Shown here one piece after another: positions 3,643-17,569 of a stretch of 39,968 bases of DNA. Source of the DNA: a virus. The notes beneath the pieces are model-generated. The model was not told the DNA's origin, did no database searches, and worked only from the letters and a program-made list of their open reading frames with translations. The position numbers were made by a program, and so were the translations under genes. Location: IMG/VR virus record IMGVR_UViG_3300034072_001363, positions 1-39,968 of that record. One strand, written 5' to 3'. Numbering within the stretch: the stretch's first letter is position 1; each line of letters starts with the position of its first letter.

Positions 3643-4096
3643 TGAGCAGCACCGCCAGCTCGAGCGCGCCCGGCGTCGCTGCGTTGAACAGGGCTTCGTC
3701 GGTGAAGGTCGTGATGGTGACGCTCTGGCCGTCAGCACCATCGGCCCCAGGTGCACCGTCTGCACCCGGCGCACCATCCGCCCCCGGAGCACCATCCGCA
3801 CCCGGATCGCCCTGCGGCCCCACCAGCGAGGCAAGCCACTGCGCTTCGGTTCCCACGAAGCCGTTGGCGACTGCAATCTGGTAGGCCGAGGCACCGTCGG
3901 CACCGTCTGCGCCCGGCGCGCCGCCGCCTAGAGCCGCGATCGCCTGCGCAACCCGTTGCGGCGTCATCACCTTGTCGGTGGCAGTCCCGGCCTCGGCCTC
4001 GGCCTGCGTGGCGACAGGGACAGTGTGATCGTCATCCCATGCGGTCACCGCCAGCGGGCGGTTCGCAGACTGGGTGCTGTGGCGGATGGACACCAT
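3635..4096 (-). CDS. Collagen-like tail fibre protein
   Basis: The 153-residue product has a fibre-type segment at about 28-55 (ATQAEAEAGTATDKV, then TPQRVAQAI), as in many phage tail fibres. It is followed by the widespread AVANGFVGTEAQWLASLVG motif and eleven Gly-X-Y triplets at about 93-125, mainly GAD/GAP. Collagen-like triplets form trimeric stalks. It sits directly upstream of the esterase gene with overlapping stop and start, so the two probably build one host-recognition device. An AAGGA-like site precedes the ATG. The last 25 residues form a short non-collagen cap. Confidence 0.8.
   Translation of the reverse strand: MVSIRHSTQSANRPLAVTAWDDDHTVPVATQAEAEAGTATDKVMTPQRVAQAIAALGGGAPGADGADGASAYQIAVANGFVGTEAQWLASLVGPQGDPGADGAPGADGAPGADGAPGADGADGQSVTITTFTDEALFNAATPGALELAVLLNA
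3722..3820 (-). repeat. 18-bp tandem repeat encoding GADGAP
   Basis: The collagen-like part of the fibre gene is built from near-identical 18-bp units encoding Gly-Ala-Asp-Gly-Ala-Pro. Such units can expand or contract by slippage, changing stalk length in 6-residue steps. Confidence 0.8.
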
Positions 4097-11311: not shown

Positions 11312-14300
11312 CTAATTCGCAAACAGCCGGGCTTCGCCGATGAAGTTGCCGCTACCGCTCGAAAATGACCCGCCGTTGTCGTTCACAGCGGCGAGGATCT
11401 GGTTCAGGATCGCGGTCTGCTCCGAAAGGATGATCGCCGCGTCCTGCGTGTTCTGTGCGATCGCCTGAGAGAACGGATCGCGGGTGTCGCCCGGCCGCGC
11501 GCTGGCCTGATCGACAAACCCGATCGCCTGCCCCGTCAGCGCACGGATCCGGTCGAAATCCGAGAAGAACGCGCCCGAGCTGGCATTGCTCTGGCGGCTG
11601 ATCGACAGCAGCAGCTGGCTGGCCTGCGTGAACCCGTCCTGATTGATCGCCGCCGCTGCCGTGCGCGCCGCCGCCTCGGCGCGTTCGATATCGGCCGCGC
11701 TGGCACCCGAGGCGCGCAGCCGCTCGACTTCGGCGCGCGCGCTTTCGGCCGCGCTGATCTGGGTCAGGAACGGTTCGAGCTGGCGCTCGGCCTCGGCGCG
11801 CTGCTCGCGCAAGCTGAGCGGCGAGTTCGAACCAGCGTTGAGGCTGGCGAGGAAATCGGCAAGGGTCTGGCTGGCCGCGCCGATGCTGGCGATTGCGTCG
11901 GCCTTCTCCAGCTCCCACAGCTGGCGCGCCTGGGCGAACTGCTCGGCGCTGGCGCTGCCTTCGATCAGCGCATCGTTCACCCGCTTGAACTTGTCGTAGA
12001 TCTCGTCGAGCGCCGCGCCCAGCGGATCCATGCGCTGCCGCAGCAGCTTGGGGATCTGCTCGATCAGCAACGCCTTTTCGATCTGCGCTTCGAGGTCGCC
12101 GCCGCGCTGCAGCAGGTTCTGGCTGGCTTGGCTGATGCCGGTGATCACGCCATCGGCGATCAGGTCCTGCACTGCAAAGCGGATCGCCGCTTCCTGATCG
12201 CTGCCGAAATCCACCGCACCGCGGCGCGTGCGCGTGCGGCCTTGCCCGGTAGGATCGACGCGGAAGTTGTCGTTGCGCACGCCGATCGAGACCGACCCGC
12301 GCGAGGCATCCACACTGCCGCCGAGCTCGCCCGCGATCTGGTAGATTGCATCGATCAGGCTACCGGCCGCACCCGTCGCCGCCTCGCGCCGGCTGCGCGA
12401 GTTGCCGCGCGTGCCGGTGATGCCGAGCTCGCCGCCCACCCCGCCGACCGTGGCGCTGCCACGCCTTGCGCCGGACAGCAGGCCGATCAGGGGCTGGGCT
12501 AGGCTGAAGGCAAGGCCTGCAATGCCGAGTGCGGTTCCGGCCGTCGAAAGCAGGCTGGAACCGCCGCCGAGCGTCGCGCTGAACCCGCCGCCTGTGGAGG
12601 GAATAGCTCCGCCACTGCCGAGCAGCCCGCTGCTCGAGGCTGCGCCGCCACCACGACCAAGCCCAAAAATCCCTCCGCCGAAGCCAGGGATACCGAACCC
12701 GTTATCGTTCGCGGCACCGAACCCGCCGCCGCCCATGAAAATGCTGGCGAGCGGCGAGCGGCCCAGCGCGCCACCGAGGGCCGAATTGAAGTTGAACCCC
12801 TGCCCGGAGATCATCGCCAGCGTCCATTCGGCGGCGATCTCGGCGATGATGCGGGTGCCTTCGTCCTTGAAGCTGCGCCACAGGTCCTTGGTGCCGCCGC
12901 GGAACGCCGTCTCGTAGAAGTCGGCGACATCGAGGATCGCCTGCTCGTGCAGCCGGCGGAAAGCCTCGGCCTGCTGCTCCGCAATGCGCTGGGCTTGTTC
13001 GGCCTGCTTTGCGGCTTCGCGGTCCTGCGCAGCGCGCGCCTTCTGGGCGGCAGCATCGCCGACCGTCTTCTGGGCGGCATTGCCCTGGTCGATCAGCAGC
13101 TGCAGACGGTCCCTGTCGGCTTGCGTCAGTTCCTTGGTGATGCCCAGCGCCTTGGCGAGCGCCTCTACCGTGTCGTTTACAGCGAGCGGATGCTGGCGCA
13201 GGAAGGCGAGCTCGGCCTCGGCGCGCGCCGCCGCTTCTTCACCCTGCTCGGCGCGGATCCGCTGGACCTGCGCGCTGTCGTCCTGCGCCTTGAGCGTGCG
13301 GGCGATCGCGTCGCGCAGCTGCTCTTCGTTGCGGATCGCTTCCTTGGCGGCACGCTCGGCCTCGCGCTCGGCTGCCGACTGGGTCGGGTTGCGGGCACCG
13401 CCACCAGCGCGCCGGGTGCCGCTGCCGCCCCCGGTCAGGCGAGGTGGGGCAACCTGTTCCTGCGCGCCCGGATAGCGTGACAGGAAGCCGCCGGGGCCTG
13501 CCCAATCGCTGTCGACGCCGGGCTGAAAGCGCACGTCCTTGAACTGGATAAGCCCACCAAGATAGGAACCAGTGACGGTCTCGCGGCGACCGAAGCGACG
13601 ATCGAGGTTGCCGATCGCGGCCGCGCGCTGGGCGGGCGAGAGGTTCTTGGGGAGGTTGCCGACCTGTTCGCGATACTGCGCCTCGGTCCGCATGAAGGTG
13701 AGCATATCGCCCGAAGCCCGCACCGCCGCTTCGGCCAGGCCGAACAGGCTGTCAGCCAGCCCGTTGATGGCGTCGGCATTTTCGGCCACCACCTTGGCCA
13801 CGCTGCGCGACAGCTGGTTCTTCATCTCCGCGATATTCGCGTTGATCTGCTGAAGGTCCTGAATTTCCTTGGCACTCAGCGCGCCGCCGAAGCGGTCAAC
13901 ATCAGCCGCCGCCTGTTGAAAACCTTCGCCACCCTTGATGAGCAGCGGATAGAGGATCTGGAACTCGTCACCGAGCAGCTGCGCACCGAGCCGCATGCGC
14001 TCGGCCGGATCCTCGATCGCGGCAATCCTGTTGGCCAGATCAAGCAGCACCGCATCGGTCGCGCGGGCCTGTCCGGAAACGGTCTGGAAGGAGATGCCCA
14101 GATCAACGAAGCCCTGCTGCGCGGTACGGTTGCCCGCGTTCGCCTCGCCGATCTTCTGGGTGAGGTTGGCCAGCTGATCGTTGAAGTCGTTCGCGCTGAT
14201 CTTGGCGGTGTTGGCCGCCTGACGCCACACCTGCAGATCCTCGGCGCCGATGTTGAACTGGCGCGAGGTGCTGGCGATTTCCGCGCCGAGCTCGCCAGCG

Positions 14301-14509
14301 CTGCTGATGGCGGTGCCGATCGCGGCGCCCAGCGCGCCCAGCGCAGCCGTGCCGAGGAAGCCTTTCACAAAGCCACTGCCCGACCGGCTCCCGGCGTCGA
14401 CAGAGAGCTTCTCGGCTTCTTGCCCGATATCGTTGAACCGACCCTTGAGCTCGCGGTCGAACTCCTCGCCCGCAAGGCGCATCCTGATAATGACGTCCTG
14501 CCGGGCCAT
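11312..14509 (-). CDS. Tail tape measure protein
   Basis: At 1065 residues it is the long, Ala/Gln/Glu-rich protein that sets tail length and passes through the tail tube. The N-terminal part has a hydrophobic Gly/Ala segment (GTAALGALGAAIGTAISSAG, about 52-71). Long helical charged stretches (about 370-530) are rich in EAERAAKEA-type heptads. A Gly-rich hydrophobic middle (about 575-690) includes LGIAGLAFSLAQPLIGLLSG, and the C-terminal third is again helical. A GGAG site precedes the ATG by six to seven bases. Position after the tail chaperone and before tip genes fits. Confidence 0.9.
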   Translation of the reverse strand: MARQDVIIRMRLAGEEFDRELKGRFNDIGQEAEKLSVDAGSRSGSGFVKGFLGTAALGALGAAIGTAISSAGELGAEIASTSRQFNIGAEDLQVWRQAANTAKISANDFNDQLANLTQKIGEANAGNRTAQQGFVDLGISFQTVSGQARATDAVLLDLANRIAAIEDPAERMRLGAQLLGDEFQILYPLLIKGGEGFQQAAADVDRFGGALSAKEIQDLQQINANIAEMKNQLSRSVAKVVAENADAINGLADSLFGLAEAAVRASGDMLTFMRTEAQYREQVGNLPKNLSPAQRAAAIGNLDRRFGRRETVTGSYLGGLIQFKDVRFQPGVDSDWAGPGGFLSRYPGAQEQVAPPRLTGGGSGTRRAGGGARNPTQSAAEREAERAAKEAIRNEEQLRDAIARTLKAQDDSAQVQRIRAEQGEEAAARAEAELAFLRQHPLAVNDTVEALAKALGITKELTQADRDRLQLLIDQGNAAQKTVGDAAAQKARAAQDREAAKQAEQAQRIAEQQAEAFRRLHEQAILDVADFYETAFRGGTKDLWRSFKDEGTRIIAEIAAEWTLAMISGQGFNFNSALGGALGRSPLASIFMGGGGFGAANDNGFGIPGFGGGIFGLGRGGGAASSSGLLGSGGAIPSTGGGFSATLGGGSSLLSTAGTALGIAGLAFSLAQPLIGLLSGARRGSATVGGVGGELGITGTRGNSRSRREAATGAAGSLIDAIYQIAGELGGSVDASRGSVSIGVRNDNFRVDPTGQGRTRTRRGAVDFGSDQEAAIRFAVQDLIADGVITGISQASQNLLQRGGDLEAQIEKALLIEQIPKLLRQRMDPLGAALDEIYDKFKRVNDALIEGSASAEQFAQARQLWELEKADAIASIGAASQTLADFLASLNAGSNSPLSLREQRAEAERQLEPFLTQISAAESARAEVERLRASGASAADIERAEAAARTAAAAINQDGFTQASQLLLSISRQSNASSGAFFSDFDRIRALTGQAIGFVDQASARPGDTRDPFSQAIAQNTQDAAIILSEQTAILNQILAAVNDNGGSFSSGSGNFIGEARLFAN

Positions 14510-14605: not shown

Positions 14606-14812
14606 GTGGACCGTTTTCTTCTTTATGCCGCCAACGCCGTCGCACTGCTCGCCACTCTGGCAGCCGTGATCCTGCTTGGCCTTGGCCTGATTGATCTGAT
14701 GAACGGCATCGCGAAGACCGAGATATGGCTGGCCATCATTGCCCTTGCCGTGGTGCCCTATTGCTTCACCGGCACGCTCCACCGGATCGTCGGCATCCCT
14801 GATCGTTCCTAA
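14606..14812 (+). CDS. Lone plus-strand two-TM protein in the tail module (moron)
   Basis: GTG at 14606 has a GGAG site eight bases upstream; the 68-residue product begins VDRFLLYAANAVALLATLAA. Two hydrophobic segments (about 6-30 and 39-56) form most of it. It is the only plus-strand gene inside a 25-kb minus-strand block, filling the 300-bp gap before the tape measure and ending within the last codons of the 14809-15465 gene. An inverted repeat, CGCTTG/CAAGCG (14540-14561), and a weak promoter-like stretch lie upstream. Opposite orientation suggests independent expression, perhaps in the lysogen. Function unknown. Confidence 0.6.
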   Translation: MDRFLLYAANAVALLATLAAVILLGLGLIDLMNGIAKTEIWLAIIALAVVPYCFTGTLHRIVGIPDRS

Positions 14813-15465
14813 AGCAGCCGCGCCAGCTCCTGGGCAAATTCCTGCGCCATTCTCCGCTCTGCCCTTGCCACTGCCGTGCCGATCGACACGCGGTTGGCGT
14901 GCGGCTGTGTCTCGATCAGCGCGAACACCGCGATGGTGCCTGTCTTGCCCACATCCTGACCGCCCCGCCGACGCTCGCCGGCCAGCTTGGCCGGGTTGAA
15001 CCCGCCGGGCCCGAAGGCCCCATCGGCCACCAGCAACGGCGTCTTGCCCGGGCGGAACAGCGGCCGGAGCTTCGCGCGAAACCGGCCTTCCCACTGGCGC
15101 GGGCTGATGTTGCGGCCCAGGCTGGTGCCCAGCGCCGCCTTGAGCGGCACCGCGAGATATCTGTTGCCCACCGCCCGGTTGGTACCGGGCAGCGACCAGT
15201 ATTCGATCAGGCCCTGCGTACGGCGCCCGCCATTGCCGAACACCTCGCCGCTCGGATCCTTGGCTGGCGTATCGCCGCGCGGATAGACAGCGCTCTTCCA
15301 CGCCCGCCAGGCATTGCCCTTTGCGGCTGCGCGGGTCTGGGCCTCGAGGTCCTGTTCCAGCGCACGGGTCGCGCGCTGCACGGCTCTGGTTCCCGCGCGA
15401 TAAAGCAGGCCGCGGGCTTCACGGCTGACCTCATCGAGGTTGAGCGCTTCAAACGTCGCCCGCAT
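14809..15465 (-). CDS. Minor tail protein (possibly DUF6441)
   Basis: The 218-residue product begins MRATFEALNLDEVSREARG. It has a helical basic N-terminus, a middle with KSAVYPRGDTPAKDPSGEVF, and a C-terminal FALIETQPHANRVSIG region. It lies between the tail chaperone and the tape measure, and overlaps the frameshift extension by 17 bp with GGAGG upstream. From memory it resembles DUF6441 phage proteins of alphaproteobacteria; I cannot verify this. A tail assembly role is inferred. Confidence 0.6.
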   Translation of the reverse strand: MRATFEALNLDEVSREARGLLYRAGTRAVQRATRALEQDLEAQTRAAAKGNAWRAWKSAVYPRGDTPAKDPSGEVFGNGGRRTQGLIEYWSLPGTNRAVGNRYLAVPLKAALGTSLGRNISPRQWEGRFRAKLRPLFRPGKTPLLVADGAFGPGGFNPAKLAGERRRGGQDVGKTGTIAVFALIETQPHANRVSIGTAVARAERRMAQEFAQELARLL

Positions 15466-15760
15466 CCCGCTTGCCCTCCGTCACCCAGTAATCGAACAAC
15501 GCGAAGGCCTCCATCGCCAGCGCAGGCTGGTCGAGGTATCCGCCCGCGCGTGGCATGATCATCGGCCCGATCCCGGCCATACCGCCGCCGCGTGCGCTGC
15601 GCAGCTGCGCCCAGGTCTGCACCAGCGCCCTTGCCCACAGCGGGCAGGTGAAGCGCGGGTTTTCCGCAAAGGCAAAACCGCCAATTTCCCATCCGCCTTC
15701 GACGCTGCGCGGCAGGCGGAAATCGCCCGGCGAAGTGAACAGCGCAAAGGCGGCCCTCAG
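15449..15760 (-). CDS. Tail chaperone -1 frameshift extension (GT-type)
   Basis: This is a 103-codon open frame, from CTG at 15760 to TGA at 15449, beginning LRAAFALFTSPGDFRLPRSV. It has good coding character but no ATG/GTG/TTG start with a ribosome site near its beginning. It lies exactly one base back from the upstream gene's frame at the run of seven A. If ribosomes slip, it continues the 191-residue protein to give a 294-residue fusion, like lambda gpGT. The extension would contact the tail tube or tape measure. An internal ATG (residue 61) exists but would leave only 43 residues. Confidence 0.75.
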   Translation of the reverse strand: MRAAFALFTSPGDFRLPRSVEGGWEIGGFAFAENPRFTCPLWARALVQTWAQLRSARGGGMAGIGPMIMPRAGGYLDQPALAMEAFALFDYWVTEGKRDAGDV

Positions 15761-16332
15761 TTTTTTTCCTCTCCCGCTGCGTACTGGAAATTGTACGCCC
15801 GGTTGCCCGCGGCATAGATCAGCGCCGGGTGGATGCGCCGCAGCACGGCGTCGGGGATCGCGCCGCTCTTGTCGCGCTCGAACGCCACCGGCTTGCCGTC
15901 GGTGCCGGTGACATTCTCCCAGTCTTCGATGAAGCGCTGGAAGGCGAGCAGCGGCATCAGGTTGCGATAGCGCGCGTTTTGCTCGACCAGCTGGCGATAG
16001 GTCGGCCAGCTCTTGGCCAGAATACCCTCGATCTCGGCAATCTGGGCGCGCTCTTCGGGCATGATCTCCTCGCGGCTGTCATCGCCGTGGAACCCGCGCA
16101 GCAGCTCCTCGAGCTCGGCCGCCTCATCGCCCGCCAGCGCGTGCACCCCGGCGATCGCCGTGTCGAGCATGACGAAGGCCGGAACCGGGGCGGCCTGATG
16201 CCGCCCCTCGAGCTCGGCATCGAACGCGCTCCGTTCGATCAGCGATGCCATCCGGATCTTGAAGCCGGGGCGCGTGTCGGCCTTGCCTTCTTCCGGCTCC
16301 TCGCCGGGCCGGTACCAAGTGTGATCCTGCAT
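15757..16332 (-). CDS. Tail assembly chaperone, short form (G-like)
   Basis: The product has 191 residues and starts MQDHTWYRPGEEPEEGKAD; this ATG is ten bases after the tail-tube stop. An acidic, helical protein between tail tube and tape measure is the place of lambda gpG, which holds the tape measure during tail assembly. The stop is reached directly after the slippery A-AAA-AAC sequence, so most ribosomes make this form and some extend into the -1 frame. The frame is open upstream to 16440, but that part overlaps the tail-tube gene and reads as shadow. Confidence 0.8.
   Translation of the reverse strand: MQDHTWYRPGEEPEEGKADTRPGFKIRMASLIERSAFDAELEGRHQAAPVPAFVMLDTAIAGVHALAGDEAAELEELLRGFHGDDSREEIMPEERAQIAEIEGILAKSWPTYRQLVEQNARYRNLMPLLAFQRFIEDWENVTGTDGKPVAFERDKSGAIPDAVLRRIHPALIYAAGNRAYNFQYAAGEEKN
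15760..15766 (-). promoter_or_regulatory. Programmed -1 frameshift slippery site A-AAA-AAC
   Basis: In the chaperone's frame the end reads GAG GAA AAA AAC TGA. The heptamer A AAA AAC has the X-XXY-YYZ form in the correct register and is a known efficient -1 slip sequence. The next in-frame codon is the stop, and the -1 frame stays open for 103 codons. Seen directly; slippage is inferred from lambda-type tails. Confidence 0.8.
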
Positions 16333-16342
16333 CCGCCCCGCC

Positions 16343-17569
16343 TCAGTAGAAGCACAGGACAGCATCGCTGTCCCGCGTCTGCGGATCGAGGCCCGAGTTG
16401 AGCGCAAGCAGCGACAGTTCCTCGGTGCGGTAGATCCCACGGCGGCCCGGCGAGATATCGGCGGGCTGGGTCAGCGGCGTGGTCAGCGACCAGCGATTGC
16501 CGGCCACCGTGCCGCACCGGATCACGGCCGGGTAGCGGGTCCCGCCCTCGATATCGGCGATGACGTTGCGGACCGAAACCAGCGTGTCGATCGGGTCGAG
16601 CGTCAGGGTCGGGGCACGGCGGGCGATATCGGCCGGGCCGAAGCCGAACGGCGTGTTCGGATCGTCGGTCACTTCCATCGCCTGCGCGGTCGCCAGCGCC
16701 CAGTTGCGGACCGCCAGCGGCAGGCGGTTGACCAGCACCGAGCTGGTGACGCCGCTTGAACCCATCGCCAGCGTCGGCGCGGTGTGCTGGGGCACGCTGT
16801 CAGCCGGGCGGGCGACATCGCTCTTGCCCAGATAATTGCCCATGAAGCGGAAGGTCATGAAGCCGGGACGAGCCGTCTCGCCGGCGAAATCGACCATGCC
16901 GCGCAGGCCTGCAAACCGGCGCAGCACCCCGTCTTCGTAGATGTAGAGCGTGCCGGACGGGTGATCGGTCGCCCGCGCCGCTGCATCCGAAGGGCTGGTC
17001 GGGGCATAGGTCCAGTTGGCCGGCAGGGCAGCGGTCACCGCCGCCGCGAGCGCCGTGCCGAACTGGTCAGTCAGCTGCGCCACGCGGGCGGCGGTATAAT
17101 CGATCACATGCGCGATGCGGCCGCCCGAAGAACCGCCGGCCAGCTGCAGCGGCATGCCGCGATACAGCTGAGCGGTGGCGGCATAGGGCGCGGCGAGCGT
17201 GGCCGAATTGACCGTGCCCGATGCCAGCGCGGTCGCAGCTACCGCCGCCGAGAAGAATCCGCGCCAGCCACAGGCGGCCAGCAGATCGTGATGCGGCGGG
17301 CGGATGAGCGAGGTGTAGGTCACACCTGCCCCGGCGCCCTTGATCCGCACCCGGAAGGTGATTTCCGCAGGCTGACCAATCACCAGCGGTGCGGCCGCAG
17401 CGAGCGACCCGTTGGCTTCCTGCGAAGCCTCGGAGCGGTACGGGCCGTTGTACTCGACGCTGTCGACCTCGAACGGAAAGGCGTTGGTCGCGTCGGGCAC
17501 AGCATCGACACCTTCGGTGGTCTCGATCTTGAACCGCATGGCAACATTGCCGTGGCGAATTCTGGACAT
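16343..17569 (-). CDS. Major tail (tube) protein
   Basis: A start at ATG 17569 is supported by GAGGAG seven bases upstream and gives 408 residues beginning MSRIRHGNVAMRFKIETTEG. The sequence is beta-rich with EVDSVEYNGPY, FRVRIKGAGAG and RPGFMTFRFMGNYLG, the style of large siphovirus tail tube proteins. It lies between the tail terminator-like gene and the chaperone pair, the conserved place for the tube protein. It polymerises into the tail tube around the tape measure. The family's exact name cannot be fixed by eye. Confidence 0.8.
   Translation of the reverse strand: MSRIRHGNVAMRFKIETTEGVDAVPDATNAFPFEVDSVEYNGPYRSEASQEANGSLAAAAPLVIGQPAEITFRVRIKGAGAGVTYTSLIRPPHHDLLAACGWRGFFSAAVAATALASGTVNSATLAAPYAATAQLYRGMPLQLAGGSSGGRIAHVIDYTAARVAQLTDQFGTALAAAVTAALPANWTYAPTSPSDAAARATDHPSGTLYIYEDGVLRRFAGLRGMVDFAGETARPGFMTFRFMGNYLGKSDVARPADSVPQHTAPTLAMGSSGVTSSVLVNRLPLAVRNWALATAQAMEVTDDPNTPFGFGPADIARRAPTLTLDPIDTLVSVRNVIADIEGGTRYPAVIRCGTVAGNRWSLTTPLTQPADISPGRRGIYRTEELSLLALNSGLDPQTRDSDAVLCFY

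Follow-up and report, generated by a model that had tools for sequence, protein, structure and literature searches.

A conserved slippery heptamer and downstream hairpin mark a very probable −1 ribosomal frameshift between two putative tail-assembly chaperone genes of a temperate phage

In a virus recorded in IMG/VR, a gene that comes after the tail tube gene and before the tape measure gene ends at a stop codon behind which the −1 frame remains open, raising the question of whether the two frames are read separately or are joined by ribosomes that slip backward. The window, by which we mean the whole stretch analysed, is the 39,968-base IMG/VR virus record IMGVR_UViG_3300034072_001363. Its minus strand carries genes for a lambda-like terminase and portal, a capsid-protease fusion, a tail terminator, a tail tube protein and a tape measure protein, and an integrase gene lies on the plus strand; this gene set identifies the window as a temperate tailed phage. 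The local gene order is tail tube, G-like frame, T-like frame, DUF6441 gene and tape measure. The two frames thus have the tail tube gene on one side and the tape measure gene on the other, which is the lambda placement, with the single DUF6441 gene intervening before the latter. In phage lambda, a low-level −1 slip at a canonical heptamer near the end of G joins it to T (PMC5009743, citing Levin 1993; Xu 2004, 2013, 2014). There, gpG binds the tape measure protein, the T domain of gpGT binds the tail tube subunit, and a 30:1 ratio of the two products is crucial; G/GT chaperones, though low in sequence similarity, are widely conserved among long-tailed phages (PMC5009743). Collectively, our analysis indicates that a programmed −1 ribosomal frameshift very probably couples two tail-assembly chaperones of this temperate long-tailed phage. 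The coordinates of the features are collected in Table 1.

Table 1. Features of the G/T locus and its neighbours, in window coordinates.
Feature	Coordinates	Strand	Remarks
G-like upstream frame	15757..16332	-	191 aa, ATG at 16332, TGA 15757-15759
T-like -1 frame	15449..15760	-	103 codons, TGA at 15449-15451; no start codon near beginning
Slippery heptamer A AAA AAC	15760..15766	-	in register, touching TGA
Zero-frame stop TGA	15757..15759	-	within 6-nt heptamer-hairpin spacer
Hairpin 5' arm CCGCCTTTG	15745..15753	-	begins 6 nt past heptamer
Hairpin 3' arm CGAAGGCGG	15693..15701	-	
Tail tube (major tail) protein gene	16343..17569	-	upstream neighbour; tblastn match to annotated Rhodobacter phage tail tube proteins
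DUF6441 / PHROG 6367 gene	14809..15465	-	start overlaps T end; 'minor tail protein' in Rhodobacter phages
Tape measure protein gene	11312..14509	-	downstream; PHROG tape measure families

The G-like frame ends in GAG GAA AAA AAC TGA, so that its protein terminates in GEEKN, and the heptamer conforms to the X XXY YYZ pattern of −1 frameshifting in the register of the upstream frame. Read from position 15760, the −1 frame begins LRAAF and stays open for 103 codons, giving predicted products of 191 residues for G and 294 residues for a G-T fusion joined at GEEKN-LRAAF. The preliminary description of this locus had placed the G stop directly behind an in-register slippery heptamer and had given the same open frame and the same product lengths, and all of these were reproduced here. 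Its account of the site was accurate for the heptamer and the frames, although it left the minus strand unstated and missed the hairpin downstream. The presence of the heptamer alone is no proof, since AAAAAAC occurs once across the two strands of the window together, close to the 1.3 occurrences expected. When only in-register heptamers of the form X XXA AAN or X XXT TTN are counted, two are found at 8,228 codon positions in 18 likely genes, one of which abuts the G stop. The second of them is GGGTTTT, within the portal gene; it was dismissed as a frameshift site and attributed to chance, as the −1 frame there stops after six codons. Past the slip, the first ATG, GTG or TTG of the −1 frame of the locus is a GTG 46 codons in, well beyond the onset of conserved protein sequence; the frame thus lacks its own start, as had been claimed for it.

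Conservation was assessed among relatives of both frames. Homologues of the G-like frame are present in eight intact IMG/VR contigs, in which G is 65-93% identical and two of which (L005 and L006) are nearly the same, and in a distant relative, L019, whose T is 46% identical; T homologues occur in L019 and in Synechococcus phage MinM1. Further viral scans yielded only contigs already found. All eight intact relatives keep GAG GAA AAA AAC TGA GRG CCG CC, with the heptamer retained letter for letter, and across eight sequences GAGGAAAAAAACTGAGRGCCGCC is constant except for one A/G site, against a background in which third codon positions differ by 37-39%. The last four G codons are the same in every compared sequence, although a single codon is used in only 20 of the 91 degenerate columns of G that have an invariant residue. 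Mismatches across the relatives at the first, second and third codon positions amounted to 0.14/0.13/0.39 for G in frame 0 and 0.18/0.16/0.37 for T in frame −1; the third-position excess in both frames indicates that G and T are both proteins under selection. Invariant T residues begin with the first codon of the −1 frame. The coding character attributed earlier to this frame is therefore borne out, and the frame is open and under coding selection without a start of its own. In L019, the junction reads G GGA AAC TGA, in register and in the same place, with the heptamer at 3995-4001 of that contig. A single homologous T family is accordingly preceded by A AAA AAC in the window and by G GGA AAC in L019, and the stop, the 6-nt spacer and the hairpin are retained. 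All eight close relatives, L019 and MinM1 have a canonical heptamer that is in register and abuts the stop of G, followed by an open and conserved −1 frame; none of them provides the second frame with its own start and ribosome site. Alignment of the two frames with these relatives, which the preliminary description had proposed as a check, revealed a conserved junction flanked by coding sequence in both frames.

RNA folding placed a stem of CCGCCUUYG paired with CGAAGGCGG six nucleotides past the heptamer. The 64-nt stretch from this +6 position was the most stable in a scan across G and T, with a mean minimum free energy (MFE) of −37.4 kcal/mol compared to −23.4 kcal/mol overall (SD 4.0). 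In each of 10 sequences, MinM1 included, the MFE of the hairpin was below that of 98-100% of synonymous shuffles. Over the same number of sequences, 97.8% of the stem cells can pair, and changes on both sides were observed in three of the nine pairs; sliding the stem register reduced pairing to 30-60% at every slide. Most of the outer stem pairs are invariant and are uninformative either way. The arms of the hairpin encode the conserved residues AAF and EGG, so part of the stem conservation could reflect conservation of the protein; the synonymous shuffles and the paired changes argue otherwise. An RNA structure is expected about 5-9 nt downstream of such a heptamer, and the 9-bp stem at 6 nt is a putative stimulator in this position. 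The register, the open frame, the conservation, the hairpin and the synteny are established features of the locus.

These features are those of a lambda gpG/gpGT-type site, an assignment made in the preliminary description that is very probably right given the heptamer, the hairpin and a location bounded by the tail tube and tape measure genes. We infer that slippage takes place and that the products act as gpG/gpGT, and the following course is proposed. Most ribosomes would terminate at TGA, yielding the G-like protein of 191 residues. A smaller share would pause at the hairpin, the P- and A-site tRNAs on AAA AAC would shift back by one base and bypass the stop, and translation in the −1 frame would then produce the 294-residue fusion. 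On the lambda model, G would form a coat on the tape measure protein and the T part would bring in subunits of the tail tube, the G:GT ratio being set by the slip rate. Ribosomes of E. coli slip far less readily on A AAA AAC than on A AAA AAG (PMC5009743); a strong stem may therefore be needed, and the host of the window's phage may differ from E. coli in this respect.

Because the window and its close relatives carry seven consecutive A residues (GAAAAAAAC), slippage of the RNA polymerase had to be considered: one A added at the run would open the same frame and allow some mRNAs to encode the fusion. We regard this as very unlikely. L019 has the same architecture with GGGAAAC, in which no homopolymer exceeds three, MinM1 has only six A, and Rhodobacter phages likewise use GGGAAAC. 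The shorter A runs of L019 and MinM1 are unsuited to polymerase slippage and suited to tandem tRNA slippage, and the in-register heptamer with a hairpin at 6 nt constitutes a set of ribosomal signals. The A run also bears on whether the two frames are merely one former ORF, broken by a sequencing or assembly error or by gene decay, since homopolymer runs are error-prone. This reading is the least credible of those weighed, because the same junction recurs in ten contigs independent of one another as well as in MinM1, an isolated phage, and is flanked on either side by sequence under purifying selection; the recurrence of a conserved junction excludes an assembly error.

Alternatively, T could be made as a separate protein through coupled reinitiation at a CTG overlapping the stop codon (C-TGA), aided by GGAGAGG 7 nt upstream. 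In the window, GGAGAGG AAAAAAA CTG does offer a plausible ribosome site and spacing. The upstream site, however, is not kept in the relatives, being GGCGAGG in L005 and L007, CCAGGCGGG in L019 and GGACGCGGC in MinM1, and CTG is a poor start that arises automatically wherever TGA follows AAC. Reinitiation also leaves unexplained both the invariant AAAAAAC and its replacement by G GGA AAC, and we give it scarcely any weight, slightly less than polymerase slippage. Programmed ribosomal frameshifting remains the preferred reading of the junction.

Subsequently, relations of G and T to known proteins were sought. Neither matched an entry in PHROGs, Pfam or the PDB. Searches of the phage collection returned nothing for G at the nucleotide or protein level and nothing for T at the protein level, and no relative appeared among genome contigs searched with a single G or with the T alignment. 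Fold predictions for G and T were weak (pLDDT ~67), and fold searches with these models gave noise alone. The G/T pair is a family missing from PHROGs and Pfam. As neither sequence nor fold linked G or T to known chaperones, the label "G-like" rests on synteny and architecture. Lambda gpG/gpGT share with the window a canonical heptamer late in G, a T read in the −1 frame and a location between the genes for tail tube and tape measure, whereas a sequence or family relation to the window's G and T was not detectable. The lambda heptamer is G GGA AAG and its stop lies further on, whereas the window has A AAA AAC with the stop immediately after. In the window, unlike in lambda, a DUF6441 gene separates T from the tape measure gene. 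The g-t frameshifts of the haloarchaeal viruses HCTV-1, -2 and -5, which have archaeal hosts, were set beside the window by description rather than by sequence. Speculatively, G and T might be unrelated to known tail chaperones and might have acquired the heptamer, stop and hairpin independently, in which case the device and not the protein family would be what phage tails keep, and heptamer swaps would be slip-rate tuning; we hold this to be rather improbable. Two heptamers within one homologous family, with the same stop and hairpin, nevertheless provide a natural comparison for slip-rate tuning.

Synechococcus phage MinM1 (ON981384) carries a T homologous to that of the window (hhalign E 5.7e-9), preceded by A AAA AAC TGA; the hairpin is present, and a DUF6441 gene lies downstream of T. 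Upstream of T, a 234-codon open frame spanning the record ends represents the G part. The deposited T (89-403 of MinM1, L032) has as its start a GTG inside the frame, 20 codons in, and no frameshift is annotated; the deposited annotation begins T too late. In Alteromonas phage P24 (MK241539; L030 5598-6241), an annotation gap before the tape measure gene holds a 101-codon −1 frame after A AAA AAC TAA, which is probably an unannotated T. The P24 and window T sequences match over 25 residues only, a GG..QP motif (hhalign probability 28%), and folding of the sequence downstream of the P24 heptamer gave no strong hairpin. Public annotation is correctable in MinM1, where T is mis-started, and probably in P24, where T is probably missing.

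In the annotation of the Rhodobacter capsulatus RcC-cluster phages RcKemmy, RcOceanus and RcDormio, the tail assembly chaperone has a joined CDS. These phages resemble the window in their capsid-protease fusion, in their module order and in an in-register G GGA AAC with a strong stem some 6 nt further on, but in them the G stop comes 87-90 nt after the heptamer. Their G belongs to PHROG 313 and is not detectably related by sequence to the window's G, and a sequence relation between the T parts was likewise not detectable. As a joined chaperone gene was already annotated in these phages of similar gene order, the kind of arrangement was known before. The locus extends the lambda G/GT device to a new group of phages, in which all its usual signals are conserved; the kind itself is textbook, an ordinary and expected feature of long-tailed phages, and the finding is of modest interest. 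What it adds are the conserved hairpin, the heptamer swap within one family and a G/T pair that is not covered by PHROGs or Pfam.

Two further observations concern neighbouring genes and other cyanophages. In the window, in L019 (4311-4988) and in MinM1 (L032 403-1080), the DUF6441 gene follows T and precedes the tape measure gene. In Rhodobacter phages such as RcKemmy (L044 3992-4636), it is instead upstream of the tail terminator, between this gene and the head-tail attachment gene, and has moved inside an otherwise similar module. In Synechococcus phage Sc-Yong805-1 and Nostoc phage Nsp-JY21 (L045 and L046, near 6275), the chaperone place is occupied by two separately annotated ORFs, and an in-register A-rich heptamer, AAAAAAA, lies some 117 nt ahead of the first stop, marking a possible unannotated frameshift.
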